From Tannerellaceae bacterium (GTDB lineage: Bacteria; Bacteroidota; Bacteroidia; Bacteroidales; Tannerellaceae): DNA of 64,000 nucleotides. Shown here piece after piece: positions 6,111 through 29,727 of the stretch. The DNA lies in NCBI GenBank assembly GCA_031288175.1, contig JAITRW010000031.1:1-64000 (forward strand), read 5' to 3'. Under the pieces are notes generated by a model. That model searched no databases. It had not been told where the DNA came from and saw only the letters and a list, made by a program, of their open reading frames with translations. The position numbers and the translations under genes are program-made. Position 1 is the first letter of the stretch; each line of letters starts with the position of its first letter.

Positions 6111-6187
6111 TTGCTTAACTGAGTGAACGACAGAAAATACAAATAGTTGATTATCAGTTATATATTGCTTAATTAGGAAAACGACAT
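6111..6187. repeat. Left pair of 23-bp repeats flanking the AlbA gene
   Basis: Two imperfect copies begin at 6111 (TTGCTTAACTGAGTGAAC...) and 6165 (TTGCTTAATTAGGAAAAC...), 54 bp apart, each ending in GACA. The second abuts the ATG of the AlbA gene. A matching pair with 55-bp phasing lies right after that gene at 7650 and 7705. The sequence between the members also shares ATCAG...TTATTGCTT with the right pair. Confidence 0.7.
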
Positions 6188-7648
6188 GATAAAAAATTGG
6201 ATTGAAAAGGCAGTCGAATATCTTGAGTGCTCATTGACTCCTATCCCTCAAGAGATGAATGAATTGGATTGGAAAGCAGAACTTTCTCCTAATAATGAAA
6301 AACTATGTAAACACTTGTCTGCTTTTGCCAATCATCCAGGAGGAGGATTCCTTGTCTTTGGAGTAGAAGATAAAGCAGGGAGATTAATCGGAGTGTCTCA
6401 GGAGCAGGCTGAGTTGATAATGCAAAGATTAAGCAGTTTATGCAGAGATTCTATATTTCCGGTTGTAAGGTTGGATCATTCTATTCAAGAGTACAAAGGA
6501 ATACCACTTTTATTTGTATATATTAAAGAAAGTGCTGTTAAACCTGTTTCTATAAAGGAAAAATCCATAGAGGATTCATATATACGAAGTGGAGGAACAA
6601 CACGACTTGCATCAAGGCAAGAAATAGGAGCTTTAATGCTCAACAGCAAAACTCCTCATTATGAGGAACTTCACGCTAGTAAATTAAAGTCCCCCGCTGA
6701 AATACTTGACCTTCTTGATTTTCGAAGTGTCTTTAGGCTACTAAATAAACCAACACCACAAAGTCAAGAAGAAATCTTGAGATGGATGAAGGATGAAAAG
6801 ATGATAGAGAACGTTGATGATATTGGCTATTATATTACTATTTTGGAGCGTTGTGTTGTGCCTATAATCTTAATATGTTTGATGGATTGTCCCGAAAAAA
6901 CATAAGGGTTATCAAATACAAAGGGATAACCAAACGTGAAACAGAAAAAGAACAATTAGGAGTAAAGGGTTATGCTATCGGCTATGAGGGGTTAATAGAT
7001 TATATTAATTCTCTCCTTCCAAGTAGCGAAGTGATAAAGAATGCGTTGAGGTCAGAAACAACCGTTTATCCAGAAATAGCTCTGCGGGAACTTATAGCCA
7101 ATGCTTTAATACACCAAGATTTTTCAGTTAGAGGAACCAGCCCGATGATTGAAATATTTGATGATCGCATTGAGGTTTCAAATCCCGGGAGACTACTTCC
7201 ATCTAAAAAGATTGACCGATTAATACGAACTACTCCTGAATCAAGAAATGAGATTTTAGCATCTGCTTTCAGAAGATATGGTATTTGTGAAGAGCGAGGT
7301 TCTGGCTTTGAGAAAGCAGTTGTTGCAATAGAATTATATGGCTTACCCCCTCTCAAGTTTGAAGAATTAGAAAATTCTTTTCGGGTAACCATGTATAGCC
7401 CTAAGACATTTGCGGAACTAACACCAACAGAAAGAATAGAAGCTTGTTACCAACATAGTATTGTTAAATACTTTTCTATTGGAGGCATGACTAACGGTAG
7501 TTTACGAGAACGATTTAAGATGAGTGAACGGCAAAGACCACAAGTCTCGTTGGTAATAAAAGAAGCTTTGGCGCAAAATAAAATTAAACCAAAAGACCCT
7601 AATAATGCCTCAACAAAATATGTGGAATATATTCCTTTCTGGGGATAA
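6186..7648 (+). pseudogene. AlbA_2 / RecG-like ATP-binding DNA-binding protein, frameshifted
   Basis: The first segment (6186 to about 6840) is an AlbA_2 (Schlafen-type) domain: LDWKAELSPNNEKLCKHLSA, FANHPGGGFLVFGVED and YIRSGGTTRLAS. The second, in the next frame, has CCAYNLNMFDGLSRKNIRVIKY and a HATPase_c_4 domain (ALRELIANALIHQDF, IEVSNPGRLLP, EERGSGFEK), then a winged-helix-like tail. Reading on at GGAGCG restores FGALCCAYNL, so one base is missing near 6840. The intact protein would be about 487 residues. Such proteins are common in islands, often beside toxin-antitoxin or restriction genes, and their role is poorly defined. Short phased repeats sit on both sides, suggesting insertion as a unit. 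Confidence 0.85.
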
Positions 7649-8315: not shown

Positions 8316-11883
<3,568 letters not shown>

Positions 11884-11914
11884 ACGGTTGCCCGTCCTAT
11901 TTGGGATTGTTTCC

Positions 11915-11922
11915 TATCTTTG
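11915..11922 (+). promoter_or_regulatory. Promoter -7 box for the T9SS cargo gene
   Basis: TATCTTTG fits TAnnTTTG and sits 74 nt before the ATG at 11997. It supports that start, because an in-frame start at 11901 would lie upstream of the promoter. Confidence 0.5.
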
Positions 11923-11996
11923 CCACACGGCATTGTACAACGTGTGTTGTGCACGTCCGCGCTTACACAAGTTGTTCGGCAAAGAAGCGATCCGCA

Positions 11997-14900
11997 ATGA
12001 AAACAAAACAACTGCTGACTCTCGTCGCATTATGGTTCCCACTCGTAGCTTTTCCCGCTCAGCGGGTGGTCCTTTCCACTGGAGCTTCGCTTCAGCGAGA
12101 AATAAAAAGGGCTGAGATTACTGTTGCCCGTACAGGTAAGGTAGACACTGTCTTCCTCCAAAAAGGCATCCACAGTGTGGTAGGGAACGCCGTTGTGTCG
12201 GAATCAATTTGCCTCATTGGAGACACATTGGATCCTTTAACTGTCTCTGTACGTCCCTATTATAATACCGAGGGCGGTGCGCCCCATCGTGTGATGCTTA
12301 TCCGTAACCTTACCAAACAGATACACGTCACCCTACGAGGCCTCACCATCACCAGTGGGAATGCATCTTATGATGATCTCTACCCTGGAAAGGGAGGAGG
12401 TATCTATAACTTTGGGGATACGCTTACGATAGAAAACGTCCGTATCATCGGTAATATAGCTTCTTCCGATAGCCTTTCTGTTGCTTCTGTAGGCTGGGGA
12501 GGGGGTATATACAACGGTGAAGGAGGTACTACCTTGGTTAGATATTCCTATATAGGTGACAATTTCGCTAAAAATAAAGGGCGAGATGGCGCTGGCTACG
12601 GCGGAGGTATTTACAATGCGCAAGGAAGTATCTTGAAAGTATTTAACTCGTCGGTTCAGAACAACATCGCTGTTCAGGGGCAAAGACAGGTTGGCTATGG
12701 GGGAGGATTGGCTAATTTCGGAGATACGCTTCTTATTGAACATTCCGACGTTACCTATAATTATGCAAACTACTCTACCATATTTTTTGAATCGGATACG
12801 GTAACAGGTTTTGGCGGTGGAATATATAATGACGGAACGGCCACGAAACAGGCTGTTTTGAAGTTGTTAGGTTCTACAATGCTGGCTGCAACCTCATCCA
12901 TGAGAATCAAAATGAACATAGCAGCCTATGTTTTCGGCAACGTGAATTACAAAAAAGCTTATGGTTATGGAGGAGGAATTGCGAACGGAGTAAACGGTCG
13001 TATTTTCTATACAGGGGAAACTCTCATTACCGGTAACTACGCCTTGGGTAACCAACATCCTGCCGTACCTGCGTCCGGAGAGGGATACGGAGGCGGAATG
13101 TATCAATATCAGGAAAGAGGGAATGGTGACAATAGTGCTTATTGGTATCCTGATCCGGATTCGGAAGCTTCGAAGGACACATTGTCCATCACAGGTAATC
13201 TTGCAGCTGATACTCTTACGGTGGGTGGAATACTTCCTCCTATATCATACGGGCATGAGATATGGGTGGGAAATTTGCTACCTCCTTCCCAACAGTTTAC
13301 TATTTATTGCGACGATGAAAATTCCGTAGAAATAATGAAGATATTTCAATTCTACGACAATTGGCATTGGGGTATCAACAGTGGAGCAAACGGGAATGTA
13401 CTCACTTTTAGGTTACCCTTCCCATACAACTACTTGCAACCGCAAATCTCCGTTGCAGGTGATGATTATTTGGATATGCAACCTGATGAAAATGATGTGT
13501 ATCGTTACCGTTTGCTGTCCAATGGCGAAGAAGGAACGGTGCGTGTGGATCTTCGAGTAAAGTCTTATTATAAGATTCCGGTACATGTTATAGGACAAGG
13601 TTTGACATTTGTAAGTGGAGATGGGGTGCTTCCCTACGGAAAAAAGGACACCGTATATGTCACGGAGGAGGGACAGTTTGGATTTGCTCTTCAGGTTGAT
13701 GAAAGTTTCCGTGGACTTACTCCTGCGGTGACTTACGGAAGGAGAGGAATTACAAGTCAACCGCATGAAGATGGTAGCTTCTATTACTCTCTGAGTGCAA
13801 AGAGCGATGAAGATGTAATATGTGCATGGGACGAAGATGGACAGCTCAACCTTGTGAGGGTGGAGTTTAAGTTTATCGGTGAAGCTTCTTCGCACATAAG
13901 TCTTGTATCCAAAGCCTATGGAGATCCTCCTGGAGATACTCCTATAGAATTCGAAGGTATCTCTTTCTATATGCCAAAGAACAACACTCTCACGTTCAGA
14001 TTGCAGGTTAACTACCCGTATCATGAAATTATACCGGTAGTACTATTGGAGGGAAGTAACGAGGTAGTGTCCGGAGAATCGGTGGGTGGAACCATTGGAA
14101 TATATAAATATCAGCAGAAGAATATTGCTAGAAACATGTCATTTCTCATCAAGAACGAATATAAAACAATTGTGCTACCTGAACCTCCTCGTGGATTTTT
14201 CATCTCCTCACCACATGCAACAGGTAAGCATTATATTCATTCGGATGTTGCCTTCTCTTTTACCTTGAAACCGGCTGATGTAGCGATGGACAATTTTCTT
14301 AAAAAGAATAGTGATTTATGGCCGGAAACACGTTCCTCTACACTTGATCCTGTACTAGTTTCACAGGGAACGTATGTCTTACCGAAAGGGAAAGATCATA
14401 TCCTCACTTTTGAAGCGAAACACCGGACAATACATCTCCCTGACCGTCTTCCTTCAGGCGTTGAATTGATGCTGGAAGAAGGTGTGACGTGGGGGAATAA
14501 TTACTGTCGTGTAGGAGGAATATTCCGATTCAAATTAAAATTGAACTCTTTCCCTGACTACCACTATCGTCCGAAAGTGGCCATAGACGGTTACGAGCAA
14601 TCCGGCAGTTTCGACGCTCAAAATAATATACTTCTCTATTCGATAGAGGATATCACGAAGGATGTGAATGTGACAATAGACCGGCATATTGTAGTGGTAC
14701 GTGCCGGTGAAGAGATAGAGTTGTTATCGCATCAACATCCCTGTGATACATTCCAAACTGCAAATGAAGAATTTATCATTGAATTCAGAAGGACGCATGA
14801 TTATCTGACGCCAAGAGTAACTGTGCAAAATGGGAAAGTGATCACCCTGACTGAGGGTGCGAATAATATCTTTTATTGTACAATAAAAGCCGGGGAATCC

Positions 14901-17900
14901 TTCAATGACAACGTCACCGGTATACACATCAAGGCCGAAGGAAGTACCGCATTCGACCTCCTCTGTCCGTCAGGAATAGAATTGGTTTATACAAGTGTTG
15001 ATCCGATACAAGGTGCTTATTGCGTGTCGGAAAACAGTCTTTTTACATTCAAGTTGAAGATAAAAGAACTTTATCAGGATGCCGTACCGGTTGTTTTTTA
15101 CGGAGGAAACAAGTTGACGGGAACAAAAGACGGTTTAGTTTGGACGTATAACATTACCGTTGCTCGTGACGCAGAAATTAAGATCGAATTGGATTATGTA
15201 GAAATCCGCTTTGACATCTTCTCTGCAATGGAGTTATTAGGGTTGAAGAAAGAGAGTAATCTTCTTAGACGTGATAGTATATATAAATTCTCTATAGAGG
15301 CTTATCGCCCGTATCACGATAGACAACCTATAATAGATTCGGATCAAGTAAAGTATGTGAGCGAAAGCCAGGAAGTACCTGGGTTCATGACTGTATACAA
15401 TTATGAATTGACCGTAAAAGAAGATGCCGTTATTAAAATTCATGCCAATTATCAAACGATATTTTTCCACATGTCGTCTACCGAATTAACGGTAAGGGAT
15501 AATAAAGGAAGAGATTTAAGGTCCGGAGACTCCATAACCGTATCGGAAAAGGACGGCAGTACTTTCTATGTGACGGTACCGAGCAAGTACGGAAGCGCTC
15601 TGCCCGGTGTTATTTTCAACAGTGCGCTGATTCAACCCATTGACAAACCTGTCCTCGACGAAGGAGGGCTTAAGTATCCGTACGTTGTGACGGCAAAGAG
15701 GAACGGTACCGTGAATATAGGTTTGAATTGTGCAAAAGTTGTCTTCAGCGGATTGGGAAACAGTATTTCTTTGCAATCTCCTGCTCCTGCCGACACGCAA
15801 TATGTTACACCCGGCACTATGTTCAAATTTCGCCTCAAAGTTGATCCTCTTTATAAGTCCATTGTCCCTGCGGTGAAAGTATCCCCTACCGGAGAATATC
15901 TGGTGCCGGAAGAGACAAGTATTGATGGCCTTTATGATTTCTCTGTGCCCGTAGGTAATGGTCTTATTTCCATAGACGCTAAACTCAGTTCCTATAAGGT
16001 CATATTATCTGTCCTTAATCCTGAATCTATTGAATTGGAGGGTGGACAGAATATCTTCTATTTTCCACAGGCAACAGAGGACAGTCCTAACGTATTAGTT
16101 TTTACCATAAAGGTGAAAGATGGTTTTGAATATGTCAGTCCTCGAGTAACGATAGGATCTACCCGTTTACGTGTAATAAGTAGGGATAAGGAAAAGTATA
16201 CTTACATCTTGGGGAATATTCGTGAAAATCTTCTTGTAGACATACAAATGGTTTACGCACGGTTGAAATTCACCCTCTCCAACGGCGTGGAGCTGGTAAA
16301 TACCGGACAGTCTATTCGTCCGGATGGCTATTATTACCTTCACACCGACAGCACCTTCACCTTCTCGCTACGTGCACCTGACGGTTCTCCAAACGCTGCG
16401 CCTGCTATAGTGGCCGGAGACGAAGCGTTGCTTCCACGTTCCCTCGGGGGCGGGGTCTTTGCTTACGCCTTCAAAGTAAAGTCCGGTGATACGGAAATAA
16501 AAGTAAGTCCTTACCGCGAGATAACTTTCGGCAATGATATCCCCGCTGACATTACTCTTCGCTCGCATAGACAGGGTATATACTATGCTCCTCTTGGTAG
16601 TCGCTTTGAATTTACTTTGGAAGTAAAAAGTTCGTATAAAAATGTTGTTCCCAACGTAACAGTAGAGGGGAATGCCGGTGTGCAGGTACAATTGATTGAT
16701 CGCGATGATGCAAAGAATATCTATAATTTCGCCATGGAGGTAAAAGATAATGCCACCTTGCACTTTTCCCTTCAGACATTAACTCTACGTTTTGCTGCTT
16801 TGCCCGAAGGTATAGTCTTTATTAACGACCCCGGTCCTTTTGCACAGGTAAAAGCCGATAGTGTATTCACCTTCGCTGTACAAGTGGACAAAGCTCACAG
16901 CAGTATACAACCTTACGTTTCTGCCGGTGGTAATTCTGTCACATTAGTCTCTGTAAACGAAAGCGACCATATTTATACTTATACCGTGACGACAAGTAAA
17001 AGTGCCACTGTCTTCGTTTCTCTTTCCGCAACTACAGTCTTTCTCTCTGCCGAATTACCCAAAGGGTTGGAACTTGCCGGAAACAATGGCGAAGGAACGT
17101 ATCATCTCTCCTACGGACAACCGTTCTCTTTCTCTGTCAGAAAGTCTTCTACACTTGACGTTCATGTCCGACCTACTGCTCATGCCCGTACAGAAGAACG
17201 GACGTGGAATATCTCTCCCGTCGTTAATGGTGAATATTTCAACTTCACCTTGCAGGAAGTCACTACGAACACGGAAATCCTTGTCGATGTCAATTACCGT
17301 ACCTTGACAATACCTGTCCCTGCTAACGATCTTATCCTCATCTATCCCACCGCCGGAACACGTGATGTCGCCACAGGCGACACTTTTAAATTCTCTTTAA
17401 AGGCTGTAAACAATACTTACGCATATGTACCACCTACCGTGACTTCTAAAAATAAAGTATCTTACACTTTTGATGAAGCTACCGGTGTATATAACTATAC
17501 ATTGACGGCTTTGTACGATGACGCAATTAGTATCAAATTAAACTATGTAGCCGTAACCGTTGACCTCGCCTCCGAAGAAATAGCTTTAGTTTCGCCAACG
17601 GGCCTTCTGTACGGTAAACAAATTGTCTATGCCCCAATGGGTGGTAACTGTACGCTTAATTTTCAATTGAGCGAATACACTGAGATAAAAACTTCTCCTA
17701 CTATCGTTGTAGATCAAGTCAAGTTACTCCCACCTACCGATATAACCGAAGTGAGTGCCAATGTTTACGAAACAACACTCCCTCAATTGACGGGAGACAA
17801 GTACATCAAAGTGCTCATACCAAGGCTTAGCAGTACAAACCAAATTGACATCTCTTTCATCATCGCTGATGGTATTATGGTCAGCCTTGCCGGTTACGAA

Positions 17901-18332
17901 TATCGTTCGACAGCACGGCATACTATCTATAAAGGTAACTTTTGCCAATTCTTCTTTCAAACCGATGAACCGTATCTGGATGCCGAAGTAGCTCTCCTCA
18001 TCAACGGAGCGCTCTACGATTTCACCACACTTGGTGGAGGTAACTATGCCGTTAATCTGGGTTCGGTCGTCTTTAATACTAATATCCAAATTCTCAGGGC
18101 AGCAAATAAGAATACAACTTTTCCTTCTGTTGCCAAAGTGAAGATTACTACCCAAGGTAATGACGTGACGGTAGAAAGCGAAGACGAAGTACCGGTATCC
18201 GTTTACACTCTGACAGGACAAATGCGATTCCAGCGTAAAATACAAGGAACCGACACTTTCACCCTACCTACCGGCATCTACGTACTACGGGTAGGCAACG
18301 AAGTCTTTAAACTCCGCCTCTCCTCCCGCTGA
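11997..18332 (+). CDS. Giant secreted beta-helix and repeat protein with T9SS C-terminal domain
   Basis: 2111 residues from ATG 11997. A signal peptide (MKTKQLLTLVALWFPLVAFP) is followed by a Gly-rich right-handed beta-helix region (about residues 50-440) with repeated GGGIYN motifs, as in pectate-lyase-like and polymorphic outer-membrane proteins. From about 465 to 2030 there are some 18 divergent modules of 80-100 residues, each with a strand pair such as FTFSLK...Y...P.V..G. The last ~75 residues (PVSVYTLTGQMRFQRKI, LPTGIYVLRVGNEVFKLRL) match a type A T9SS sorting domain, so the protein should cross the outer membrane by T9SS and be anchored or released. Function is probably adhesive or structural; no catalytic motif was recognised. 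Confidence 0.85.
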   Translation: MKTKQLLTLVALWFPLVAFPAQRVVLSTGASLQREIKRAEITVARTGKVDTVFLQKGIHSVVGNAVVSESICLIGDTLDPLTVSVRPYYNTEGGAPHRVMLIRNLTKQIHVTLRGLTITSGNASYDDLYPGKGGGIYNFGDTLTIENVRIIGNIASSDSLSVASVGWGGGIYNGEGGTTLVRYSYIGDNFAKNKGRDGAGYGGGIYNAQGSILKVFNSSVQNNIAVQGQRQVGYGGGLANFGDTLLIEHSDVTYNYANYSTIFFESDTVTGFGGGIYNDGTATKQAVLKLLGSTMLAATSSMRIKMNIAAYVFGNVNYKKAYGYGGGIANGVNGRIFYTGETLITGNYALGNQHPAVPASGEGYGGGMYQYQERGNGDNSAYWYPDPDSEASKDTLSITGNLAADTLTVGGILPPISYGHEIWVGNLLPPSQQFTIYCDDENSVEIMKIFQFYDNWHWGINSGANGNVLTFRLPFPYNYLQPQISVAGDDYLDMQPDENDVYRYRLLSNGEEGTVRVDLRVKSYYKIPVHVIGQGLTFVSGDGVLPYGKKDTVYVTEEGQFGFALQVDESFRGLTPAVTYGRRGITSQPHEDGSFYYSLSAKSDEDVICAWDEDGQLNLVRVEFKFIGEASSHISLVSKAYGDPPGDTPIEFEGISFYMPKNNTLTFRLQVNYPYHEIIPVVLLEGSNEVVSGESVGGTIGIYKYQQKNIARNMSFLIKNEYKTIVLPEPPRGFFISSPHATGKHYIHSDVAFSFTLKPADVAMDNFLKKNSDLWPETRSSTLDPVLVSQGTYVLPKGKDHILTFEAKHRTIHLPDRLPSGVELMLEEGVTWGNNYCRVGGIFRFKLKLNSFPDYHYRPKVAIDGYEQSGSFDAQNNILLYSIEDITKDVNVTIDRHIVVVRAGEEIELLSHQHPCDTFQTANEEFIIEFRRTHDYLTPRVTVQNGKVITLTEGANNIFYCTIKAGESFNDNVTGIHIKAEGSTAFDLLCPSGIELVYTSVDPIQGAYCVSENSLFTFKLKIKELYQDAVPVVFYGGNKLTGTKDGLVWTYNITVARDAEIKIELDYVEIRFDIFSAMELLGLKKESNLLRRDSIYKFSIEAYRPYHDRQPIIDSDQVKYVSESQEVPGFMTVYNYELTVKEDAVIKIHANYQTIFFHMSSTELTVRDNKGRDLRSGDSITVSEKDGSTFYVTVPSKYGSALPGVIFNSALIQPIDKPVLDEGGLKYPYVVTAKRNGTVNIGLNCAKVVFSGLGNSISLQSPAPADTQYVTPGTMFKFRLKVDPLYKSIVPAVKVSPTGEYLVPEETSIDGLYDFSVPVGNGLISIDAKLSSYKVILSVLNPESIELEGGQNIFYFPQATEDSPNVLVFTIKVKDGFEYVSPRVTIGSTRLRVISRDKEKYTYILGNIRENLLVDIQMVYARLKFTLSNGVELVNTGQSIRPDGYYYLHTDSTFTFSLRAPDGSPNAAPAIVAGDEALLPRSLGGGVFAYAFKVKSGDTEIKVSPYREITFGNDIPADITLRSHRQGIYYAPLGSRFEFTLEVKSSYKNVVPNVTVEGNAGVQVQLIDRDDAKNIYNFAMEVKDNATLHFSLQTLTLRFAALPEGIVFINDPGPFAQVKADSVFTFAVQVDKAHSSIQPYVSAGGNSVTLVSVNESDHIYTYTVTTSKSATVFVSLSATTVFLSAELPKGLELAGNNGEGTYHLSYGQPFSFSVRKSSTLDVHVRPTAHARTEERTWNISPVVNGEYFNFTLQEVTTNTEILVDVNYRTLTIPVPANDLILIYPTAGTRDVATGDTFKFSLKAVNNTYAYVPPTVTSKNKVSYTFDEATGVYNYTLTALYDDAISIKLNYVAVTVDLASEEIALVSPTGLLYGKQIVYAPMGGNCTLNFQLSEYTEIKTSPTIVVDQVKLLPPTDITEVSANVYETTLPQLTGDKYIKVLIPRLSSTNQIDISFIIADGIMVSLAGYEYRSTARHTIYKGNFCQFFFQTDEPYLDAEVALLINGALYDFTTLGGGNYAVNLGSVVFNTNIQILRAANKNTTFPSVAKVKITTQGNDVTVESEDEVPVSVYTLTGQMRFQRKIQGTDTFTLPTGIYVLRVGNEVFKLRLSSR

Positions 18333-18385: not shown

Positions 18386-19066
18386 ATGAAAAGAATAAAA
18401 GTGCTATTGATCCGGTTTCGGAATGAGTTACACCGTAATGATATTCCCCTATTCAGAGGAGCGATTATCCATATGTTGCAAAACAACAACATCCTTTTTC
18501 ATAATCATGCAGAAAATGGCTTGCGTTACGCTTACCCATTGATACAGTATAAACGACTGAATAATAAGGCCGCTATCGTCTGCATGGAAGAAGGTACGGA
18601 AACTATAGGGGAGTTCTTCTCTTGCTTCTCCAAAGTTTTGCGCATCGGTGATAGCGAGATACAATTGGAGTTAGACAATATCAAAGCTGAACAAGTATTA
18701 GTTCAGGTATGGAGAAGTGATTTCATTTATTCCATTCGCAGATGGATACCTTTCAATAGTGAAAATCACGAGAGATATTCGAAAATGACCAGCCTGAGGG
18801 AGCAACTCGAACTTATGGAAAAGATATTAATTGGTAATGTACTTTCCTTTGCCAAAGGTATCGGAGTACAACTTCAGCAACAACTCTCGTGTTCCATTGT
18901 AAGCATGGAATCAAAGGGATTAATTACATTCAAACATGTTCGTTTTGAAACATTCGATATCCTTTTTAAAATAAATATATCTTTACCTGATTATATAGGT
19001 TTAGGGAAAGGGGTGAGTCATGGTTTCGGTACTATCGTCAGGATGAATACAAACGGACAAACGTAA
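18386..19066 (+). CDS. cas6: CRISPR-associated endoribonuclease Cas6
   Basis: 226 residues. The C-terminal LPDYIGLGKGVSHGFGTIVR is the glycine-rich loop of Cas6-type RAMP proteins, and the N-terminal VLLIRFRNELHRNDIPLFRG is a ferredoxin-like strand/helix pair. Cas6 cuts pre-crRNA in each repeat, leaving an 8-nt 5' handle. It is the first gene of the type III-A locus, just upstream of cas10. No clear promoter was found in the 53 bp after the T9SS cargo gene. Two different repeat sequences lie downstream of the operon; which one this Cas6 processes cannot be told from sequence. Confidence 0.8.
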   Translation: MKRIKVLLIRFRNELHRNDIPLFRGAIIHMLQNNNILFHNHAENGLRYAYPLIQYKRLNNKAAIVCMEEGTETIGEFFSCFSKVLRIGDSEIQLELDNIKAEQVLVQVWRSDFIYSIRRWIPFNSENHERYSKMTSLREQLELMEKILIGNVLSFAKGIGVQLQQQLSCSIVSMESKGLITFKHVRFETFDILFKINISLPDYIGLGKGVSHGFGTIVRMNTNGQT

Positions 19067-19079
19067 TAATATCTTAAAC

Positions 19080-21513
19080 ATGGAGCATCTACGGGATCGT
19101 AGTTGCACGACATCGGGAAGTTTTATCAAAGAGCAGATACCGGTAGCGTATCAACAAGCCGTTATTTGTCTCCTCAAAATAAGGTAGAGAGTACATTTCT
19201 TCCTTTGCATAAGGGTATATACAGCCACAAACATTGTCTCTGGACAGCACAATTCATTGATGACCATCGTGATATCTTTAATCAATTGAGTATAGGATTA
19301 GATGACACACAGAATGTAGATAACCTGCTCTATCTATCGGCACAACACCATTTGCAAAAGCAACAGCTATCTTCCTTAGGACAGATCTTAAAAGAAGCTG
19401 ATTGTTTGTCCTCTGGTATGGATAGAGATTCCGAGGAAGCATTGAAAGATGATCAAGATGTAACCGGATGGGATCAGTTTAGAAAAAAAAGAATGACTTC
19501 CGTACTTGAAACAATTTGTCTCGGAGAAGCGAAATTGAAGGAAAAGAAAGATTGGTGGCATTTACCCGTCGCTAAAATTTCTTTTCTAATCCGGATTATT
19601 CCCATCTGTGGGAGGCTTTTGTCACCGATTTCAAGTCTATACAGACGACAGAGTGCTGTGCCTTTGCTGAATCATTCCTAAATTTACTGTTTGAGTACAC
19701 AAGTTGTATACCTTCAAGTACAATCCACTTTCCGGACGTCTCCCTCTATGACCACGCTAAGACAACAGCTGCTCTATCTGTATGTTTGTATGACTACTAG
19801 AAAAGTGGAGAAACTGGGAAAGAACCGTTCTTATTAATCGGAGCAGATCTTAGCGGTATCCAATCTAAACATGCCGGAAAGAACTTAAAAGGACGTTCGT
19901 TTTTCCTGTGTATTCTTTCCGACGCAGTCGTTTGATATTTGTTGAAGGAATTAGACTTATTTCAGGCAAATATTATTTACAACTCTGGTGGAGGATTTTA
20001 TCTGATCGCTCCTAACACTGAGCACATCCGAGACGGTCTTCTGCGATCAATCAATCATATTGAACGTAAGTTTTTCGATGTCTTTGGAACAGCTCTCTTT
20101 ATGGCAATTGACTATGTTCCTGTTTCCAAGGAATCTTTAATGCATGTGGAAGGAAAAGATTTGAGAAAGATATGGTCCCAGTTATTTGACAAAAAGGACC
20201 AAAAGAAATCTTGCCGCTTCGCTTCTTTGATAAAAAACGAGTATCACCGTTTCTTTTCTCCTACCACACGAAGAGGTGATGCTTTACGTGATGTGATTAC
20301 AGGGGAAGAGTTCTTTCCAGATGAACGAAGTATAAATATAGATGCAGGTAATGTAAAACAAGAGACGAATATCCAGATACAATTAGGTAAAATACTCCGT
20401 GAGTCGGTAATTATGGTCGTTTCCACAGAAAAACTTCCTTATTGGAAAGGAACAGATATAGTGGTCGTCAATCCGGCTGAATTAGGGTTCTTCTATTATT
20501 TCTTGAGGGAAGAAAACTTAAAAGAGATGTCTCAAAGGTTACAGGCTTCTGTAGATAACGTACATATTGTTGTATTTAATAATAGGGACAAAGACTTTTC
20601 ATTGAAAGGAAAGAATAATATCTACAAAATGGAGTTTTACGGTGGAAATCAATTCAATGGGGACACTTTCGATGAGATGGCCAAGAATCCTAATTTTTCC
20701 CGAATGGGTATTTTACGCATGGATGTCGATAATTTAGGATCGGTATTTCGGTCCGGTATTCCGTCGTGTCGTGCCACATTATCTCGTTTCGCAGCTCTAA
20801 GTCGTTCGTTTGATTATTTCTTTTCCGGTTATTTGAATACGATATGGGAAGAGACGTCTCCTGAGAAATCATTCATCATTTACAGTGGAGGTGATGATCT
20901 CTTTATAGTAGGAGCTTGGGATATTACTATCCAAATAGCGAAAAAGATACGGAAAGAGTTTAAAGAATTCACCTGTTTTAATCCGGCTTTTACTATCTCT
21001 GGAGGTATTGCAATCTTTCCTGCTAAATTTCCTATCATGAGAGGTGCAAGTGAAAGTGCCAATGAAGAAAATCGAAGCAAAAAACATACTGTAAAATACA
21101 CAACAAATAAAAATGCCATTTCGTTTATGGGTATGCCTTTACACTGGGAAAAAGAATTTCCTGTGGTTGAGAAGTTAAAAGAGAACATAGTGAAGTTCCT
21201 CCAACAAAAGGTTATTTCTAAGTCATTTATCTCAAAAATAATGACATATGCCGACAATGCTAATATTAAAAATCATGAAATAACTCAATACAAAACCTAT
21301 TGGATAGTCTCCTACGACTTGACTCGTTTCAAGGAAGATATCAAAGAAGGTGAAGTTAAAAAATTGATAGACAATTGTATAGTGGAAATATGCGGAAATA
21401 AACCATGTCTAAATGGAGAAGCGATAGACACAGACTATCACGCCTTAGAATTGTGGACATTCGCTACACGATGGGCTGAATTGGAAACACGAATCAATAA
21501 CAGTAACAAATAA
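19080..21513 (+). pseudogene. cas10: Cas10/Csm1 with disrupted N-terminal half
   Basis: Cas10 is the type III signature subunit: an HD domain cuts DNA and Palm domains make cyclic oligoadenylates. ATG 19080 opens correctly, but a short deletion before LHDIGKFYQRAD shifts the frame and removes the usual residues before LHDIG. A second shift near 19575-19585 precedes NPDYSHLWEAF. TAG at 19798 follows CLYDY. About seven codons are missing inside GADLSGIQ/SKHAGKNLKGRSF. TGA at 19933 stands where VVRYLLKELDLF is expected. Downstream, 19939-21513 is open for 524 residues with an intact Palm2 cyclase motif GGDD (20887-20898). Two stops, two frameshifts and a deletion in one gene argue for real decay. 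A truncated product with a cyclase domain is possible but unproven. Confidence 0.9.
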
Positions 21514-21523
21514 AAGAAGGATT

Positions 21524-21994
21524 ATGGAAAATAGACATTCGAGGAATTCGTACCCTAGTCACAATGGTCGACCAGATTCCAACGAAAATTGGCAATCAGC
21601 CGAAACAGCCGAGAAATGGTTTCAGCAGCACATGTACAAATCCGAATGGATCACACAGCAGGCAGACAAAGATTTGGTAGCCTATGCGGAAGAAGCAGGA
21701 AAATTTATGGTAGAGAAAGAATTGACAAAATCTAAGATCCGAAATATTTACGGGGAAATCAAAAGAATTGATATAAAAGGGTTTGAAGAAGCAAAATCTT
21801 CTTTTTTTCTTCTGAAAGCCAAAATGGCTTATGCTGTAGGACGCGACAGAAAAAATGAAGGATTGAGACTCTTCCAGTTGATTTTTGACAGATGTTGGCA
21901 AGATGTATCAGACCAAGAAAAAAGTTACAAGAACTTTTGTAGATTCATTGAGGCTATCCTTGTATACCATCGCGCTCATGGAGGAAAAGATTAA
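21524..21994 (+). CDS. csm2: Type III-A effector small subunit Csm2
   Basis: 156 residues, mostly helical. ELTKSKIRNIYGEIKRID and the end FCRFIEAILVYHRAHGGKD match the Csm2 family. Csm2 lines the effector filament and contacts the crRNA-target duplex. The first ~30 residues are polar and probably disordered. The gene begins 10 bp after the cas10 stop and is undamaged. Confidence 0.9.
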   Translation: MENRHSRNSYPSHNGRPDSNENWQSAETAEKWFQQHMYKSEWITQQADKDLVAYAEEAGKFMVEKELTKSKIRNIYGEIKRIDIKGFEEAKSSFFLLKAKMAYAVGRDRKNEGLRLFQLIFDRCWQDVSDQEKSYKNFCRFIEAILVYHRAHGGKD

Positions 21995-22020: not shown

Positions 22021-22650
22021 ATGTCACACAAATTGATAAAGAAGATTATTTACACCGGTACCATTACATTGAAAACAGGTATGCATATCGGTGGAACGAA
22101 TTCCGCGTTAAATATCGGAGGGCCTGATAAATTTGTAGTTCGCAATCCGATAAACAATATCCCATACATTCCGGGAAGTTCTCTGAAGGGGAAAATGCGT
22201 GCTCTCATAGAAATCGCTAATGGCGAAACAAATAACGGAAACCATTCCAGTGACCCAAAGTCGAAATCGGGCAAATTATTTGGCGTCGCCGGAGATAAAG
22301 GTGGTACCCCTTCTCGACTTATTGTAAGAGATACCGAGTTAGATATCCATGCCGTTGATTTCAGCAATACGGATTTACCTTATACGGAAAGTAAAACAGA
22401 GGTTAGTATTGACCGGATAACAGCTAAATCTAACCCGCGAACTCTCGAACGTGTTCCTGCCGGTGCAAAGTTTAAACTTAATATGGTACTGAATATATTT
22501 GAAGACGATGATGAAGAGGCATTGAAAACTATTTTGAAAGATGCTATCCAACTGTTGGAAGACGACTACTTAGGAGGCCACGGTTCGCGGGGTTATGGTC
22601 AAATATCTATTGACGATCTCAAGGATGAAGAAAAGACTTACAACGAATAG
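22021..22650 (+). CDS. csm3: Type III-A RAMP protein Csm3 (target RNA nuclease)
   Basis: 209 residues. TLKTGMHIGGTNSALNIGGPD matches the Csm3 start; Asp36 in IGGPD aligns with the catalytic Asp of characterised Csm3 (D33 in S. thermophilus), so target RNA cleavage should be retained. IPYIPGSSLKGKMRALIE is the crRNA-binding loop, and GGHGSRGYGQISI is the C-terminal glycine-rich RAMP motif. Csm3 forms the backbone of the Csm complex and cuts bound RNA every 6 nt. Confidence 0.93.
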   Translation: MSHKLIKKIIYTGTITLKTGMHIGGTNSALNIGGPDKFVVRNPINNIPYIPGSSLKGKMRALIEIANGETNNGNHSSDPKSKSGKLFGVAGDKGGTPSRLIVRDTELDIHAVDFSNTDLPYTESKTEVSIDRITAKSNPRTLERVPAGAKFKLNMVLNIFEDDDEEALKTILKDAIQLLEDDYLGGHGSRGYGQISIDDLKDEEKTYNE

Positions 22651-22652
22651 TC

Positions 22653-23642
22653 ATGGCCATCTATAACATCATCAAATTAAAAAAGATTTCTCCTTTTCAT
22701 ATCGGGACAGGTCGGGAAAATTATGACTCCTCTACCTCGGAATTACAAAGTGATACACTATCAGCCGCACTTGCAGCTTTGAGAGTACAGTATAAAGGGA
22801 AAAACGATGTAGATACTTTTCTTAATTCTTTCACGTTAAGTTCTGCTTTTCCTTTCTTGCGACAATCCTTTTTCTTCCCCGTTATGCGGGGAAAGATTAA
22901 TATCTCTGTGGAGGGAGACAAAGGACATGAGAGTGGAAAATATCTTAAGAAATTGAGATACATTGATTCGAGATTATGGAATGATTTGGTGAAAGGAGAA
23001 TCCATAAAAATTTCTCTATCCCAACTCAGAGGGAATTTGTTGATGAATAATGAAGAATCAAATTTTGATGTCTCTTTCAAATCACAGGTAAATCAACGTG
23101 TTTCCGTCTCAAGAGAGAATGAACAAGATAGTGATCCTTTCTTCTTTGAATGGACATTTTGTCATTCAGAGGCAGGATTATATTGTTTAACTGATGCCAC
23201 GGGTACCTTGTTTGATGAAATCGTATCTTTATTCGAAATCTTAGGAGAAGTTGGTATCGGTACTGATAAAAATATTGGTGGAGGAAAATTTGAGGTCGAA
23301 ATAGGTTCTTTGCTTTTACCCGAAATAAAGAATGCCGATCATCTCATGCTATTATCCCTCTACATCCCAACTCAGGAAGAACTCCCTCAGTTGCACCTCA
23401 AGGACTCTTGTTACGAACTCTTGTTACGCGGAGGTTATATCGCTGGGAGTCAGGAAGGCCATCTGCGTCACTTACGCAAGCGCTCTATTTACATGTTCAA
23501 CGTAGGCTCTTTATTTTCAACAACTTCTACACTCATGGGTAAGGTCGTCGATTTGGCGCCGGAATGGAATGATCCACAGATGCATGCCGTATATCGTAGT
23601 GGGCGGCCTTTTTATCTGCCCGTAAAGAAAAATGTACTATGA
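22653..23642 (+). CDS. csm4: Type III-A RAMP protein Csm4
   Basis: 329 residues. The start, IIKLKKISPFHIGTGRENYD, and the SDTLSAALAAL segment match Csm4, which holds the 5' handle of crRNA and contacts Cas10. GEVGIGTDKNIGGGKFEV is the glycine-rich RAMP loop. The gene starts 2 bp after csm3 and overlaps csm5 by 4 bp. It is intact, although its partner Cas10 is broken. Confidence 0.9.
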   Translation: MAIYNIIKLKKISPFHIGTGRENYDSSTSELQSDTLSAALAALRVQYKGKNDVDTFLNSFTLSSAFPFLRQSFFFPVMRGKINISVEGDKGHESGKYLKKLRYIDSRLWNDLVKGESIKISLSQLRGNLLMNNEESNFDVSFKSQVNQRVSVSRENEQDSDPFFFEWTFCHSEAGLYCLTDATGTLFDEIVSLFEILGEVGIGTDKNIGGGKFEVEIGSLLLPEIKNADHLMLLSLYIPTQEELPQLHLKDSCYELLLRGGYIAGSQEGHLRHLRKRSIYMFNVGSLFSTTSTLMGKVVDLAPEWNDPQMHAVYRSGRPFYLPVKKNVL

Positions 23643-24739
23643 GTACTCTGAAGATAGAAACACTCACACCTGTACATGTAGGTTCTGGAAATTTACTCTA
23701 TAATAACACGGATTTTGTAGAAGCCAAGATAAAAGGGAAGGATAAATACTTCCTTGCTATTATATCTGAAGAGAAGATTTGGGAACTGTTGGGAAAACGG
23801 GAAGAACACATGAATTTGTGGTTAACTGCTATCTCTAAACGGGAAAACATAAAAGAGTTTATCCGGCGATTCATCCCTGATGCCAAATCCTCTGACTATG
23901 CAAAACGTAAAATGAAGCTATTCTCCTCCTTGGGGAAAACAGATACACTAAAAGAGTTGATACATAATGGTATGGGATATCCGTACATTCCCGGAAGTTC
24001 CATCAAAGGGGCAATCCGCACTGCCGTCTTAGCTTCGTTAGTAAGCGGTAAACAATATCCATCCGCTCAGAAGGTTGAAAAAGAGTTATTTGGACAAAAT
24101 CCTAATAATGATATATTTCGTTTTCTACAAGTAGGTGATGCCTATTTTGAGAAAGGGAGTGAAATTGCTATTCGATTGATCAACTTGAATATCCGAGATT
24201 CTAAAGAAGAGTTGAAGGATATGTCCAAGTCACAACTTGTTGAAACCATTGGGGAAAAAGAATCAGCTACATTCCAATTAAAGTTTGCCCAAAATCATTA
24301 TCAATTATTCGCCGCCCAGAATAACAGACATCCTATGATCCTTCCTATTAAGGAAATACAAACAATAGAGAGTTTGTTTCACCTGATCAATACACATACC
24401 CTGAAACTTGTAGCAGAAGAGATAGAAATCTGGAAAAAGGTTGAGAAAACAGAAGGAAAAAGCTATGTGAAGAATATGGAATCTATTAAGAAAGAAATTG
24501 AAGCATGTGCTGATGGGAAATCTTGTATATTACGAATTGGGCATGCATCCGGCTGGCGATTTATTACCGGTGCCTGGACAGAAACCTTGAGTAACTTTCA
24601 ATCCGACATCGTCCCTGTCTCACGCCGAGATAAAGGGAACTATAAATATCAAGGATATCCATTTCCTAAAACTCGTCGTTTAGATGAAGGTGATTATTTA
24701 TTGGGATTTGTAAAATTATCTGTGCCAAATGATAAATAA
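23639..24739 (+). CDS. csm5: Type III-A RAMP protein Csm5
   Basis: 366 residues. LKIETLTPVHVGSGN and YPYIPGSSIKGAIRTAVL are family motifs. The C-terminal FPKTRRLDEGDYLLGFVKL is typical of Csm5. Csm5 caps the 3' end of the complex and helps mature the crRNA with host nucleases. No damage is visible. Confidence 0.9.
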   Translation: MSTLKIETLTPVHVGSGNLLYNNTDFVEAKIKGKDKYFLAIISEEKIWELLGKREEHMNLWLTAISKRENIKEFIRRFIPDAKSSDYAKRKMKLFSSLGKTDTLKELIHNGMGYPYIPGSSIKGAIRTAVLASLVSGKQYPSAQKVEKELFGQNPNNDIFRFLQVGDAYFEKGSEIAIRLINLNIRDSKEELKDMSKSQLVETIGEKESATFQLKFAQNHYQLFAAQNNRHPMILPIKEIQTIESLFHLINTHTLKLVAEEIEIWKKVEKTEGKSYVKNMESIKKEIEACADGKSCILRIGHASGWRFITGAWTETLSNFQSDIVPVSRRDKGNYKYQGYPFPKTRRLDEGDYLLGFVKLSVPNDK

Positions 24740-24740
24740 C

Positions 24741-25859
24741 ATGAACCGTACAATTGTAAATATCATTTCCGAACAAACAACTCCTAATTTCCTATTCATC
24801 AAGGAAATGTTTCAACCGGAGGATGAATTGCTTTTCATAACCTCTCGGAAATATGAAGAACGTATTACGTGGATTATGCAAGCCGTAGGTTATACGGAGC
24901 CTTTTCATAATATAAAGAAAATTATTTTAGGAGAGGGAGCCGAGGAAGACTGGACACAGATGTATACCAGTATTAACGGAAGCATATCGGATGTGAAACA
25001 TTATATAGTTAATCTTACTGGCGGTACTAAGTATATGAGTTTAGCCGTCCTTTCCATATTTGAAAAGTTAAACGCTAATTTCTACTACATTCCTTTCCCA
25101 AAAAACGTCATTTTGAGAATCTTTCCAGGCACTACTACTCACGTATCGGAAAAGTATTCATTAAAACATCGAATGACGGTGGAAGAATACATGAAAAACT
25201 ATAGCAACCCTGTAAAAGGAAGTCCACTTTCTCAAGATGTAGTGTATACAAAAAAATTCTTCGGTTGCTTTATTGAAGGCAAAGTAGAACATAAAATCAT
25301 CTCTTCTTTAAGAGAGTATCGTAACACAAATAAGAATCCAAAGACAACAGATATACATATAATACCAAAACTCAACGATCTATTACAAGCTATAGAATTC
25401 CCTATTAAAAAGGAAGATATCCTCTCTAAGGATGAAGTTAAGTATCTCATAGGTGGATGGTTTGAGGAATATATTTACAATCGAATCCTTGAAACATTAA
25501 ATCCTAATGATATTAAACTTGGCCTGCATATTTCTCCTCAAAAGAATCATCAAAATGAATTGGATGTTGTTTTTACCTATGGAAATAAATTGTTTGTGGT
25601 AGAGTGTAAAACTGGAATAGACGATGAAAGAATGTTTAAAGATACCGTATATAAAGCAACTTCGATAAAAAACGCCTTATTGGGACTATCTGCAAACACC
25701 TTTATCTTCTCCCTGTCTAAATCTGACTCCACTCAAATGAATAAATTTGGAGATACCGCGAAAGCCATGGGTATTTATTATTTCGATAGAGATTATTTTT
25801 TTGACGATCAAAAGTTTGAAGAACTTGTAAATACAATGAAGGGAATGGCCAAAAATTAA
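24741..25859 (+). CDS. Card1-like CARF-domain nuclease (DUF1887 type)
   Basis: 372 residues from ATG 24741, or 376 from ATG 24729 inside csm5. The N-terminal half is a CARF domain with HYIVNLTGGTKYMSLAVL, the segment that senses cyclic oligoadenylate. The C-terminal half is a PD-(D/E)XK nuclease: GGWFEEYIYN (Glu), NELDVVF (Asp279 in the longer numbering) and FVVECKTG (Glu292, Lys294). Card1/Can2 enzymes cut single-stranded DNA and RNA when the type III cyclase makes cA4. The locus has no Csm6, so this is the likely ancillary effector. Its activation depends on whether the damaged Cas10 makes any signal. Confidence 0.85.
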   Translation: MNRTIVNIISEQTTPNFLFIKEMFQPEDELLFITSRKYEERITWIMQAVGYTEPFHNIKKIILGEGAEEDWTQMYTSINGSISDVKHYIVNLTGGTKYMSLAVLSIFEKLNANFYYIPFPKNVILRIFPGTTTHVSEKYSLKHRMTVEEYMKNYSNPVKGSPLSQDVVYTKKFFGCFIEGKVEHKIISSLREYRNTNKNPKTTDIHIIPKLNDLLQAIEFPIKKEDILSKDEVKYLIGGWFEEYIYNRILETLNPNDIKLGLHISPQKNHQNELDVVFTYGNKLFVVECKTGIDDERMFKDTVYKATSIKNALLGLSANTFIFSLSKSDSTQMNKFGDTAKAMGIYYFDRDYFFDDQKFEELVNTMKGMAKN

Positions 25860-25863
25860 AGTC

Positions 25864-26226
25864 ATGTTGATAAATCTTTCCAATCACCCCTCGCATTTAT
25901 GGTCAGAAAAACAATGGAAAGCTGCTATGGTATATGGTGAAGTTGTAGATATTCCATTTCCTGATGTGGATCCGGAAGGAGATGAATTATATATTCACTC
26001 CCTATCTTTCGAATATGTAATGAAGATATTAAATATAAAAAAAGAAGAAGAAAATGTTACGGTACATATAATGGGAGAAATGACACTCTCGTATAGTCTA
26101 ATTCATGCTCTATCATCCGAGAACATTTCTTGTATAGCATCTACTACTCTACGAAATGTGATCTCTTTCAGCAATGATGTAAAAGAGACTCAATTCGTTT
26201 TCTCTCGTTTTAGGAAATACCAATAG
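25864..26226 (+). CDS. Small type III CRISPR ancillary protein, possible ring nuclease
   Basis: 120 residues. It has the pattern of a small Rossmann/CARF-like fold: strand MLINLSNHPS, then YGEVVDIPFPDVDP, VTVHIMGEMTLSYSLIHAL and ISCIASTTLRNVISF. Small stand-alone proteins of this kind accompany type III loci with CARF nucleases and several families (Crn-type, Csx15/16/20-type) cleave cyclic oligoadenylates to switch the response off. I cannot assign it to one named family. It directly follows the Card1-like gene (4 bp), which fits an off-switch role, but that is inference. Confidence 0.6.
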   Translation: MLINLSNHPSHLWSEKQWKAAMVYGEVVDIPFPDVDPEGDELYIHSLSFEYVMKILNIKKEEENVTVHIMGEMTLSYSLIHALSSENISCIASTTLRNVISFSNDVKETQFVFSRFRKYQ

Positions 26227-26241: not shown

Positions 26242-27222
26242 ATGGATCTGGTTTTGAATACATTTGGTACTTGTTTAACGAAAGATAACGAAACTTTCGT
26301 TGTACTCCACAAGGATGGTCGTCAACGAATAGCGCCGAATGATGTTCGTAGTATATTAGTCAATCGTGGCGTACAGATCTCCAGTGATGCTATTTTATTA
26401 GCCATAGAACACGAAATTGAAATATTATTTATTGAGAAATCCGGCAATTCGGTAGGAAGAATTTGGAGTGCTCGTTATGGCTCCGTCTCTACTATTCGAA
26501 AAGGACAGGTCCAGTTCACACATTCTTCGGATGCCGTAAACTGGATAAAAGATATCATCATCCATAAAATAGAGAATCAACAAGCTTTATTATGGACGTT
26601 CACCGCTTCCTATCCGGAATTAACCACTCCAGTAGAGCAAACTGTTGGGAAAATTGAAAAATATCGACTGAAAATAAAAGAGTTACATGGAGAGCAGATC
26701 GTTGATATTGCATCCAAACTCCGAGGATGGGAAGGAATTGTTTCCCGCCTTTATTTTGAACAGATAAATATGTTTTTACCGGAATGTTACCGTTTCCTTC
26801 AGCGTAGTCAACATCCTGCTTTGGATATAGTCAATGCAATGTTAAATTACGGCTATGGCATTTTATATGGTAAAATTGAAGGGTCATTAATTCGGGCAGG
26901 TATAGATCCGTATGTTGGTATATTTCATCGGGATGAATATAACCGTCCTGTTTTGGTTTACGACATCATTGAACGATATAGAGTATGGGTAGATTATGTG
27001 GTATTTATGTTAGTCATACAAAATGCGCTTAGCGAAGAGTTTTACTCTATACGAACGGATAAGTCTTGCTGGTTGGAGAGTTTAGGGCGGAGAGCGTTGA
27101 TTCAGTCGATGAATGATTACCTCGTAGAAATTATTTCTTATCAAGGTATTGAACGTTCGAGAATGACGCACATTGATTTATATACACAAAATCTTGCACA
27201 ACAGTTTAAGAAAATGATCTAA
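26242..27222 (+). CDS. cas1: CRISPR integrase Cas1
   Basis: 326 residues, normal length. The metal ligands are visible: Glu164 in RGWEGIVSRLYF, His229 in IFHRDEYNRP and Glu244 in VYDIIERYR. The N-terminal beta domain precedes the all-helical catalytic domain. Cas1 with Cas2 inserts new spacers at the leader end of the array. The gene is undamaged and is followed by the primase-like gene 12 bp later. Confidence 0.95.
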   Translation: MDLVLNTFGTCLTKDNETFVVLHKDGRQRIAPNDVRSILVNRGVQISSDAILLAIEHEIEILFIEKSGNSVGRIWSARYGSVSTIRKGQVQFTHSSDAVNWIKDIIIHKIENQQALLWTFTASYPELTTPVEQTVGKIEKYRLKIKELHGEQIVDIASKLRGWEGIVSRLYFEQINMFLPECYRFLQRSQHPALDIVNAMLNYGYGILYGKIEGSLIRAGIDPYVGIFHRDEYNRPVLVYDIIERYRVWVDYVVFMLVIQNALSEEFYSIRTDKSCWLESLGRRALIQSMNDYLVEIISYQGIERSRMTHIDLYTQNLAQQFKKMI

Positions 27223-27234
27223 TTTTTGTATGCC

Positions 27235-28251
27235 ATGTTACAAATAGGGAGATCCATGATGCAAAAGAATGATGTATTACAAAACATTAGTCTTGAAAAA
27301 TTGGTTTCTCTACTCAAAAATCCTGTTCCCGAAATTTCTTTACTTATCCGTAGGATGCAAGTTATCCGATTAATTGATCAAAAACAATATACTGTAACCC
27401 TACAACGGTTACCTTACATGGTATGTGGAATATTCCAACCTCCTTATCGAAGTGTTGAAAATTTTGGATACATTCAGTTTTTTATGGTCGATATCAACCA
27501 TATAGCAGAGAAACAATTATCTATAGATGTAATTAGACGGCAGATGATACAGGATCCTCGCGTCTGGGTATGTTTTACTTCTCCCGATGAAGATAGTTTG
27601 AACGTATTATTCTGTTTAAAGGATAAATGTTACGATGCAGGACAATATTCGCTCTTTTATAGAAGTTTTGTTCGCTCATTATCGACACAATATCTTTTAG
27701 ATCAAGTCGTCGATAATTACTGCGCAGATGTAACTAAAATTTGTTTCCTGAGTGAAGACATTGATGTCTATTATAATCCAAAAGCGGAGTTGATCGAAAT
27801 AAACTCTTTTGTCAATTTTGAAAATTCTTTGGAGACTCATGAGCTGAAATCGCTTATAGATAAAGAAACAAAAGAACTCTATCCACAAAAGAAAAATACA
27901 CTATCCGTACCTGATGATATAGCCATTGCGTTCATAAAAGAGAGGTTGCGCCCTAAGTCATCAACAAGACCTCAAATTCCCACCTATGTACCTCAAGAAG
28001 TAGAGCAACTATTAGAGAAGCTAGTTGACTATATTAAAGAAGCAGGTATTGAAGTATCCGAAGTAATAGATATACAATATGGGAAAAAATTGAAATTCCG
28101 TTTGGGAGTAAAACAGGCAGAAATAAACTTGTTTTGGGGTAAACGCGGTTTTTCTGCCGTTAAGTCACCACGTAAAGGAACATCACCGGAGTTTAATGAT
28201 TTAATGCAACAATATATTTCCTCATTCATTGGAGGATTGTACGATATATAA
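27235..28251 (+). CDS. CRISPR-associated primase-polymerase-like protein (AEP fold)
   Basis: About 338 residues from ATG 27235 (TTG 27226 is possible). Residues 60-180 follow the BT4734/BF3469-type archaeo-eukaryotic primase pattern: YMVCGIFQPP, FGYIQFFMVDINHI at motif I, CFTSPDEDSLNVLF at motif II, and DVTKICFLSEDIDVYYNPKAE at motif III. In the active family motif I is DxD; here it is Asp86-Ile-Asn88. The usual SGxGLK of motif II is PDEDSLN. The polymerase site may be altered or lost. The C-terminal ~80 residues (INLFWGKRGFSAVKSPRKGT) look like a separate nucleic-acid-binding domain. Prim-pols encoded with cas1 and cas2 are implicated in spacer acquisition, so a role there is likely. Confidence 0.65.
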   Translation: MLQIGRSMMQKNDVLQNISLEKLVSLLKNPVPEISLLIRRMQVIRLIDQKQYTVTLQRLPYMVCGIFQPPYRSVENFGYIQFFMVDINHIAEKQLSIDVIRRQMIQDPRVWVCFTSPDEDSLNVLFCLKDKCYDAGQYSLFYRSFVRSLSTQYLLDQVVDNYCADVTKICFLSEDIDVYYNPKAELIEINSFVNFENSLETHELKSLIDKETKELYPQKKNTLSVPDDIAIAFIKERLRPKSSTRPQIPTYVPQEVEQLLEKLVDYIKEAGIEVSEVIDIQYGKKLKFRLGVKQAEINLFWGKRGFSAVKSPRKGTSPEFNDLMQQYISSFIGGLYDI

Positions 28252-28252
28252 C

Positions 28253-28726
28253 ATGGGAAACAAACATTCTATCTCGTTTGTACCACACCTGTTAAAATTA
28301 CATCGTTCGGGATTGGCTAATAATCCACGTCCATCTCCAAATCAATCATTTCCGGATGACCTACCCTCAATTGAAGCACGTACACAAAAAATACTCAATA
28401 TTGTAAATGATACACGTAAAAATAATCGTATGTTGTTTTTTGTAATGTATGATATAGAAAACAATCGTGTGCGGAGACAAGTCGTAAATTATTTACTACG
28501 AAAAGGTTGTATTCGCGTACAGAAATCAGTTTTTCTCGCGAATACGGAACATGTGATACATAAGGAAATAAAAAACGATCTCGCAGCCGTTCAAGAATGT
28601 TATGAAAATAACGACAGTATCCTAATTATCCCTATTTCAACCGATTATTTACAGGCTATGCGTATTATTGGAAAGAATTTAGATATTGATGTTATCCTGA
28701 AGAATAAAAACACTTTGTTCTTTTGA
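28253..28726 (+). CDS. cas2: CRISPR adaptation protein Cas2 with N-terminal extension
   Basis: 157 residues from ATG 28253, one base after the stop of the primase-like gene. The Cas2 core is residues ~60-157: MLFFVMYDIENNRVRRQVVN with the conserved Asp, LLRKGCIRVQKSVFLAN and NDSILIIPIS. Cas2 normally has 80-100 residues; here about 60 extra polar residues (starting MGNKHSISFVPHLLKLHRSG) precede the core. The role of the extension is unknown; it could contact the primase-like neighbour. Confidence 0.85.
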   Translation: MGNKHSISFVPHLLKLHRSGLANNPRPSPNQSFPDDLPSIEARTQKILNIVNDTRKNNRMLFFVMYDIENNRVRRQVVNYLLRKGCIRVQKSVFLANTEHVIHKEIKNDLAAVQECYENNDSILIIPISTDYLQAMRIIGKNLDIDVILKNKNTLFF

Positions 28727-28775: not shown

Positions 28776-28862
28776 CGCTCCCAAAAAATATATCAAAAAC
28801 TCCGTGGAAATCCTGTCGGATGATAGGTATCCCTCTATTAATCAGTCTATTATAAGTATACT

Positions 28863-28965
28863 ATCCCATACCTTCTTCCAACAAAACAAGGATTAAGACA
28901 CAAACTGCGCTCGACGCAACGAGTAATGACAATCCGATCCCATACCTTCTTCCAACAAAACAAGG
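28863..28965 (+). CRISPR. CRISPR array 1 with a single spacer
   Basis: The first repeat is 37 nt (28863-28899): it starts ATCCCATACCTTCTTCC and ends GGATTAAGAC, giving a type III-like 8-nt handle ATTAAGAC. A 37-nt spacer (28900-28936) follows. The second repeat (28937-28965) is identical for 29 nt and then diverges (TTTTT), as leader-distal terminal repeats do. Leader, promoter and direction agree with + strand transcription. The array lies about 135 bp after cas2. A single spacer is very little for a locus with intact cas1 and cas2. Confidence 0.85.
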
Positions 28966-29566: not shown

Positions 29567-29727
29567 ATATAGCTTATACTAAGGTACAATTATAACAGTG
29601 ATTTCTATCGTTTGAGAAGCCTCTTCATACGTATTTCAATTCCACTAAGGTACAATTATAACGAGGCGATTAATAAGTATTCAGAAGTTGACAAAAAATT
29701 TCAATTCCACATGGTATTGGAATTAGC
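29567..29727 (-). CRISPR. CRISPR array 2, short, 30-nt repeats unrelated to array 1
   Basis: The central repeat is complete (29633-29662, 30 nt, starting ATTTCAATTCCACTAAGG on the + strand). The left copy (29567-29596) keeps only its last ~19 nt, and the right copy (29698-29727) only its first ~13 nt. The spacers are 36 nt (29597-29632) and 35 nt (29663-29697). Read on the minus strand the repeat starts GTTATAATTG and ends ATTGAAAT, a common 5' handle, so transcription is probably leftward. Degenerate repeats on both ends suggest an old fragment. A third fragment with the same repeat is at 51499. Confidence 0.8.

Follow-up and report, generated by a model that had tools for sequence, protein, structure and literature searches.

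A type III-A CRISPR locus with a broken cas10 gene and a probable recent loss of function in a Tannerellaceae genome bin

A type III-A locus of clustered regularly interspaced short palindromic repeats (CRISPR) is encoded in the first 64,000 nucleotides (nt) of contig JAITRW010000031.1 (assembly GCA_031288175.1, Tannerellaceae bacterium; hereafter the window), and its cas10 gene carries five lesions. This locus has very probably been inactivated recently, as part of a decay that also affects other accessory genes of the genome, which would be a case of ordinary biology. The window lies on a 99-kb contig (C31) of a metagenome-derived genome bin that is 77% complete and comprises 45 contigs totaling 1.60 Mb. 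The genes are arranged on the plus strand in the order cas6, cas10 (broken), csm2, csm3, csm4, csm5, a Card1-like gene, a Csx20-like gene, cas1, a primase-polymerase gene, cas2, and the remnant of a repeat array. Matches to the subtype profiles TIGR01870, TIGR02582, TIGR01903, TIGR01899, and TIGR02578 assign the locus to type III-A (Csm), in which csm2 to csm5 adjoin the gene for Cas10/Csm1, the latter being present here as a pseudogene only.

Lesions in cas10 were called by alignment with six intact relatives, and all five lie upstream of an open stretch of 524 codons with the GGDD motif. The two frameshifts that the first-pass annotation, made from the letters alone, had placed at 19085-19100 and 19575-19585 correspond to 16 nt missing near 19100 in comparison with each of the six relatives and to a net loss of 34 nt near 19572-19595 relative to Parabacteroides sp. 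Marseille-P3160 (L044), which the alignment splits into gaps of 15 and 19 nt, with some uncertainty about where exactly they fall. Both of the in-frame stops that it had reported are present: TAG at 19798 stands where all six relatives have a sense codon (Gln in four of the six), and TGA at 19933 occupies a position that is Arg or His in relatives. The small in-frame deletion is one of 21 nt near 19867, by which seven codons of a conserved stretch are gone. The open part said to keep the GGDD motif begins at TTG 19939 and is recognized by the Csm1 profile TIGR02578 (E 1.5e-103). Its argument that multiple lesions speak against sequencing error also holds, since the lesions are deletions and stops and the frameshifts are small deletions rather than single-base or homopolymer slips. 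The comparison with close relatives that it had proposed thus left all five lesions standing, and a family search of the bin's own genome likewise returned cas10 as two separate matches with internal stops. With two frameshifts, two stops, and an in-frame deletion, the gene has no continuous Cas10 frame spanning Palm1 and Palm2. A complete Cas10 can no longer be produced from it, as both the HD part and Palm1 are disrupted, and the gene is a broken descendant of the Csm1 family rather than a working member.

Every other gene of the locus had been described as open. Their reading frames are, yet damage extends beyond cas10: little is left of the native array, and a catalytic Asp is missing from the primase-polymerase. 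Both are further losses that the first-pass annotation missed, and they strengthen its suggestion that the system may be dead. The array is down to a single spacer between one full and one clipped repeat; arrays near cas2 in relatives have repeats of 36 to 37 nt in 6 to more than 40 copies. Elsewhere in the bin, no further copy of the native repeat was found at up to 3 mismatches, which leaves two copies in all. The primase-polymerase scores 335 bits against NF040562 (curated cut-off, 200) and is a member of that family. The second Asp of its DxD motif, present in 11 of 11 relatives, is replaced by Asn (D91N), so the catalytic DxD is missing. Of 74 sites that are otherwise invariant, 11 carry private changes in this protein; the pooled figure for the other proteins is 11 of 684 (Fisher p 1.1e-6). 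The lost Asp is presumably a metal ligand. In the related MpCAPP, no activity could be detected once the catalytic motif had been mutated to AxA (PMC8211822). The gene resembles that of DbCAPP (PMC8211822) in belonging to the type B family and in its position between cas1 and cas2 as described for DbCAPP; it differs in that DxD is DxN.

Decay of this extent is unusual among relatives. A scan of 84,980 GTDB species genomes for relatives yielded 34 loci, of which two have a single frameshift in cas10 (L029 and L039) and none has several lesions; the open cas10 frames of the remaining relatives are 741 to 888 codons long. The closest by Cas10 identity (62%) is a Dysgonamonadaceae bin (L021). About 97% of Cas10 proteins are predicted to be active according to a recent survey (PMC12669027). 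Cas10 relatives were not found in viral contigs, and on plasmids only distant ones (<30% identity) occurred among the matches listed. A complete cas10 elsewhere in the genome had been named as evidence that would overturn a reading of decay; a family search for a second Csm1/cas10 gene found none in the bin (77% complete), nor did the bin contain any Cas1 or RAMP genes besides those of the III-A locus.

In its working form, as the gene families suggest, a Csm complex carrying CRISPR RNA processed by Cas6 would sense target RNA, and Cas10 would then make cyclic oligoadenylate and may cut DNA. The cyclic oligoadenylate would activate Card1, Csx20 would clear the signal, and Cas1, the primase-polymerase, and Cas2 would add spacers. 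In the decayed state, cyclic oligoadenylate would not be made and Card1 and Csx20 would therefore be idle; no new spacers would be gained. Carrying an active type III-A system can come at a cost, and loss of cas10 can itself be selected: a spacer directed against a prophage was costly to staphylococcal lysogens, and a mutation in the palm of cas10 removed that cost (PMC5754349). The one native spacer left was considered as a cause of the loss here through self-targeting; with up to 3 mismatches allowed, it matched nothing else in the bin, so no direct sign of self-targeting was seen. Viral contigs contained no exact match to either of two spacers.

The first-pass annotation had offered as an alternative that a truncated cyclase is still made from a start near 19939. 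The open 3' stretch covers positions 273-753 of the 753 in TIGR02578, and the 5' open reading frame (ORF) covers positions 10-117. The Pfam domain Csm1_B (PF18211), which we take to correspond to Palm1, has its match in the remnant beginning no earlier than position 29 of 94, so the remnant lacks HD altogether and a large share of Palm1. Private changes at conserved sites amount to 0/28 in the N-terminal part of cas10, 0/27 in the middle, and 2/78 in the C-terminal part, and in these comparisons the 3' part appears no better conserved than the broken 5' part. Prolonged selection on the 3' part alone should have let the 5' and middle parts drift further, which is not observed; most simply, cas10 worked as an entire gene until a short time ago. 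The lack of excess changes in any of the three parts also makes the loss look recent, a recency that would explain why the remaining genes are still open; relaxed selection in cas10 was for the same reason rejected as a clock. A working truncated cyclase is unlikely, because the remnant begins inside Palm1 and shows no extra constraint relative to the broken part.

Several observations nevertheless weigh against a complete loss of function. All five lesions fall within the 5' 35% of cas10 (post hoc chance, ∼0.005), a clustering that is the one point favoring a retained 3' part; the codons between the lesions show no excess of private changes at conserved sites (2/133; p 0.81); and most other genes of the locus look constrained. 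Continued use of part of the locus, to which we assign a small chance, would be expected to leave the same pattern. The short array could be a collapse in the metagenome assembly, and a helper cas10 or a longer array could sit outside the 77%-complete bin. Under neutrality, two stops should be accompanied by about 10 missense changes at conserved sites (ratio, ∼5), and the absence of such an excess is weak evidence with only two events. Continued use could take the form of a truncated Cas10, consisting of Palm2 and the C-terminal domain and made from 19939 or a later start, that joins Csm2 to Csm5 and retains partial function, either Card1 signaling or merely holding the RNA-cutting (Csm3) complex together. 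The 524 open codons with GGDD, the confinement of every lesion to the region upstream of them, and the open csm2 to csm5, Card1, and Csx20 genes agree with such a protein, while the similar constraint on all three parts of cas10 and a native array of one spacer do not, and we regard it as quite improbable. A minimal functional Cas10, in which a Csm complex without HD and with a partial Palm1 would rely on the 3' remnant to sense RNA and drive Card1 or only to cut RNA, is more doubtful still. Lesions or a collapsed array that exist only in the consensus, and in no living cell, through misassembly or mixture of strains would be conceivable in a metagenome bin of 45 contigs, all the more as arrays are hard to assemble; against this, the lesions are three deletions and two stops without homopolymer slips, the long neighboring genes on the contig are open, and the independent missense loss in the primase-polymerase fits real decay, so that an artifact, too, seems quite improbable.

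Recent loss of function is also in keeping with the state of the rest of the genome. Within the window, an ABC transporter ATPase gene (52349-53257) contains an in-frame TGA and an apparent internal deletion, and an AlbA_2/recG C-terminal-like gene (6177-7645) is split by a frameshift. Elsewhere in the bin, an ABC exporter gene is broken by frameshifts near the contig end (L060, 13938-15357), and neighboring paralogs of an outer-membrane beta-barrel receptor lie in pieces in different frames (L011, contig C20, 5344-12307). Long housekeeping-type genes at 8397-10001 and 9994-11883, which from their sequences we presume to be CTP synthase and YidC, are open. Scaled by completeness, the bin amounts to about 2.1 Mb, compared with 2 to 5 Mb in the family relatives listed. 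Broken accessory genes, open housekeeping-type genes, and the scaled size fit a genome that is shedding accessory functions, defense among them.

A second CRISPR repeat (core CTAAGGTACAATTATAAC) occurs in two short arrays, at 29578-29712 of the window and at 1-760 of L011 on contig C20, where the array adjoins a cas2 fragment at the contig end. It is a trace of another CRISPR system, the effector genes of which were not found in the 77%-complete bin; a search for the Cas3 core gave two matches, both below the cut-off. The III-A locus could have been kept as an accessory module whose Cas6 and adaptation genes serve the second repeat, freeing cas10 to decay while selection would still maintain the other genes. 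The existence of the two short arrays, the cas2 fragment at the edge of C20, and the fact that the only Cas1 found in the bin is that of the III-A locus are compatible with this arrangement. However, the primase-polymerase is damaged, the bin, itself incomplete, yielded no effector genes for the second system, and the arrangement gives no reason to keep csm2 to csm5 and Card1; we consider it very unlikely.

Among the known systems closest to this one is the locus of Parabacteroides sp. Marseille-P3160 (L018/L044), which shares the gene order cas6-cas10-csm2-5-card1-csx20-cas1-primase-polymerase-cas2-array and 43 to 71% protein identity. It differs in having an intact Cas10 (835 amino acids), a primase-polymerase with DxD, at least 30 array repeats, and an extra AAA ATPase-like gene between csm5 and card1 (L018, 12057-13418). 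The Card1-like protein combines CARF with a PD-(D/E)xK nuclease and aligns to Card1 (PDB 6wxw; E 2.4e-25) with the core D, E, and K matched, but it sits in a locus without a working maker of cyclic oligoadenylate. Loss of Cas10 cyclase function is shared with types III-C, III-G, III-H, and III-I (PMC12669027). Types III-G and III-H have substituted catalytic residues, and in them cyclase loss accompanies loss of genes for cyclic oligoadenylate-binding ancillary proteins (PMC12669027), whereas the present locus has a disrupted reading frame and still carries Card1 and Csx20.

For cas6, cas10, csm2 to csm5, and csx20, mean identity to six complete loci is about the same as identity among those loci. 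cas1 is more divergent, and relaxed selection on it was rejected: 14/158 conserved columns are changed, but L021 has 14/156, and only 3/119 invariant-site changes are private. Among the relatives, the Cas10 proteins of L038, L041, L042, and L045 (∼741 to 765 codons) have no detectable match to the N-terminal (HD) part, and the Cas10 of Prevotellaceae Kf353_bin96 (L033, 3385-4920) has 13 private changes in 89 invariant columns and is possibly inactive. In Tannerella sp. Gx481_bin75, some 110 codons are missing from the interior of cas6 (L019, 5386-5760, on one contig with L025) and cas10 is open; cas1, primase-polymerase, and cas2 were not found within 20 kb, and the locus is either a III-A locus in partial decay or one of a reduced kind. 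Directly upstream of the CRISPR locus, the window contains a very long, repetitive ORF (11901-18332; ∼2143 codons) with a surface protein-like product.

Table 1. Features of the type III-A locus, in window coordinates
Feature	Coordinates	Strand	Evidence
cas6 (226 amino acids), open	18386..19066	+	PF17262 and PF17955 over cut-off
cas10/csm1 pseudogene, five lesions	19080..21513	+	Alignment with intact relatives; family search of own genome
cas10 open 3' remnant, 524 codons: part of Palm1, Palm2 with GGDD, C-terminal domain	19939..21513	+	TIGR02578 positions 273-753; PF22335; PF18211 from position 29 of 94
csm2, open	21524..21994	+	PF03750, TIGR01870
csm3, open	22021..22650	+	TIGR02582 (E 1.7e-63)
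csm4, open	22653..23642	+	TIGR01903 (E 3.8e-53)
csm5, open	23639..24739	+	TIGR01899 (E 6.8e-23)
Card1-like CARF nuclease, open, nuclease core D, E, K kept	24729..25859	+	PF23400 and PF09002 over cut-off; alignment to PDB 6wxw
Csx20-like ring nuclease candidate, open	25864..26226	+	PADLOC Csx20 match (E 7.3e-33); NCBIfam Csx20 match below cut-off (24 vs 70 bits)
cas1, open	26242..27222	+	PF01867, TIGR00287
CRISPR-associated primase-polymerase type B, open, DxD to DxN at residue 91 (codon 27496-27498)	27226..28251	+	NF040562 (E 4.6e-100)
cas2, open	28229..28726	+	TIGR01573
Native array remnant: one full repeat, one spacer, one repeat clipped at 3' end	28862..28965	+	Repeat search; comparison with relatives' arrays

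The finding leaves the understanding of type III systems unchanged. It would provide a clear snapshot of the death of a type III-A system, with damage to its central enzyme, its store of spacers, and the polymerase that copies spacers at a time when the other genes are still open. It also carries a warning, as profile-based annotation scores the broken cas10 far over the cut-off and can count a dead locus as an active one.
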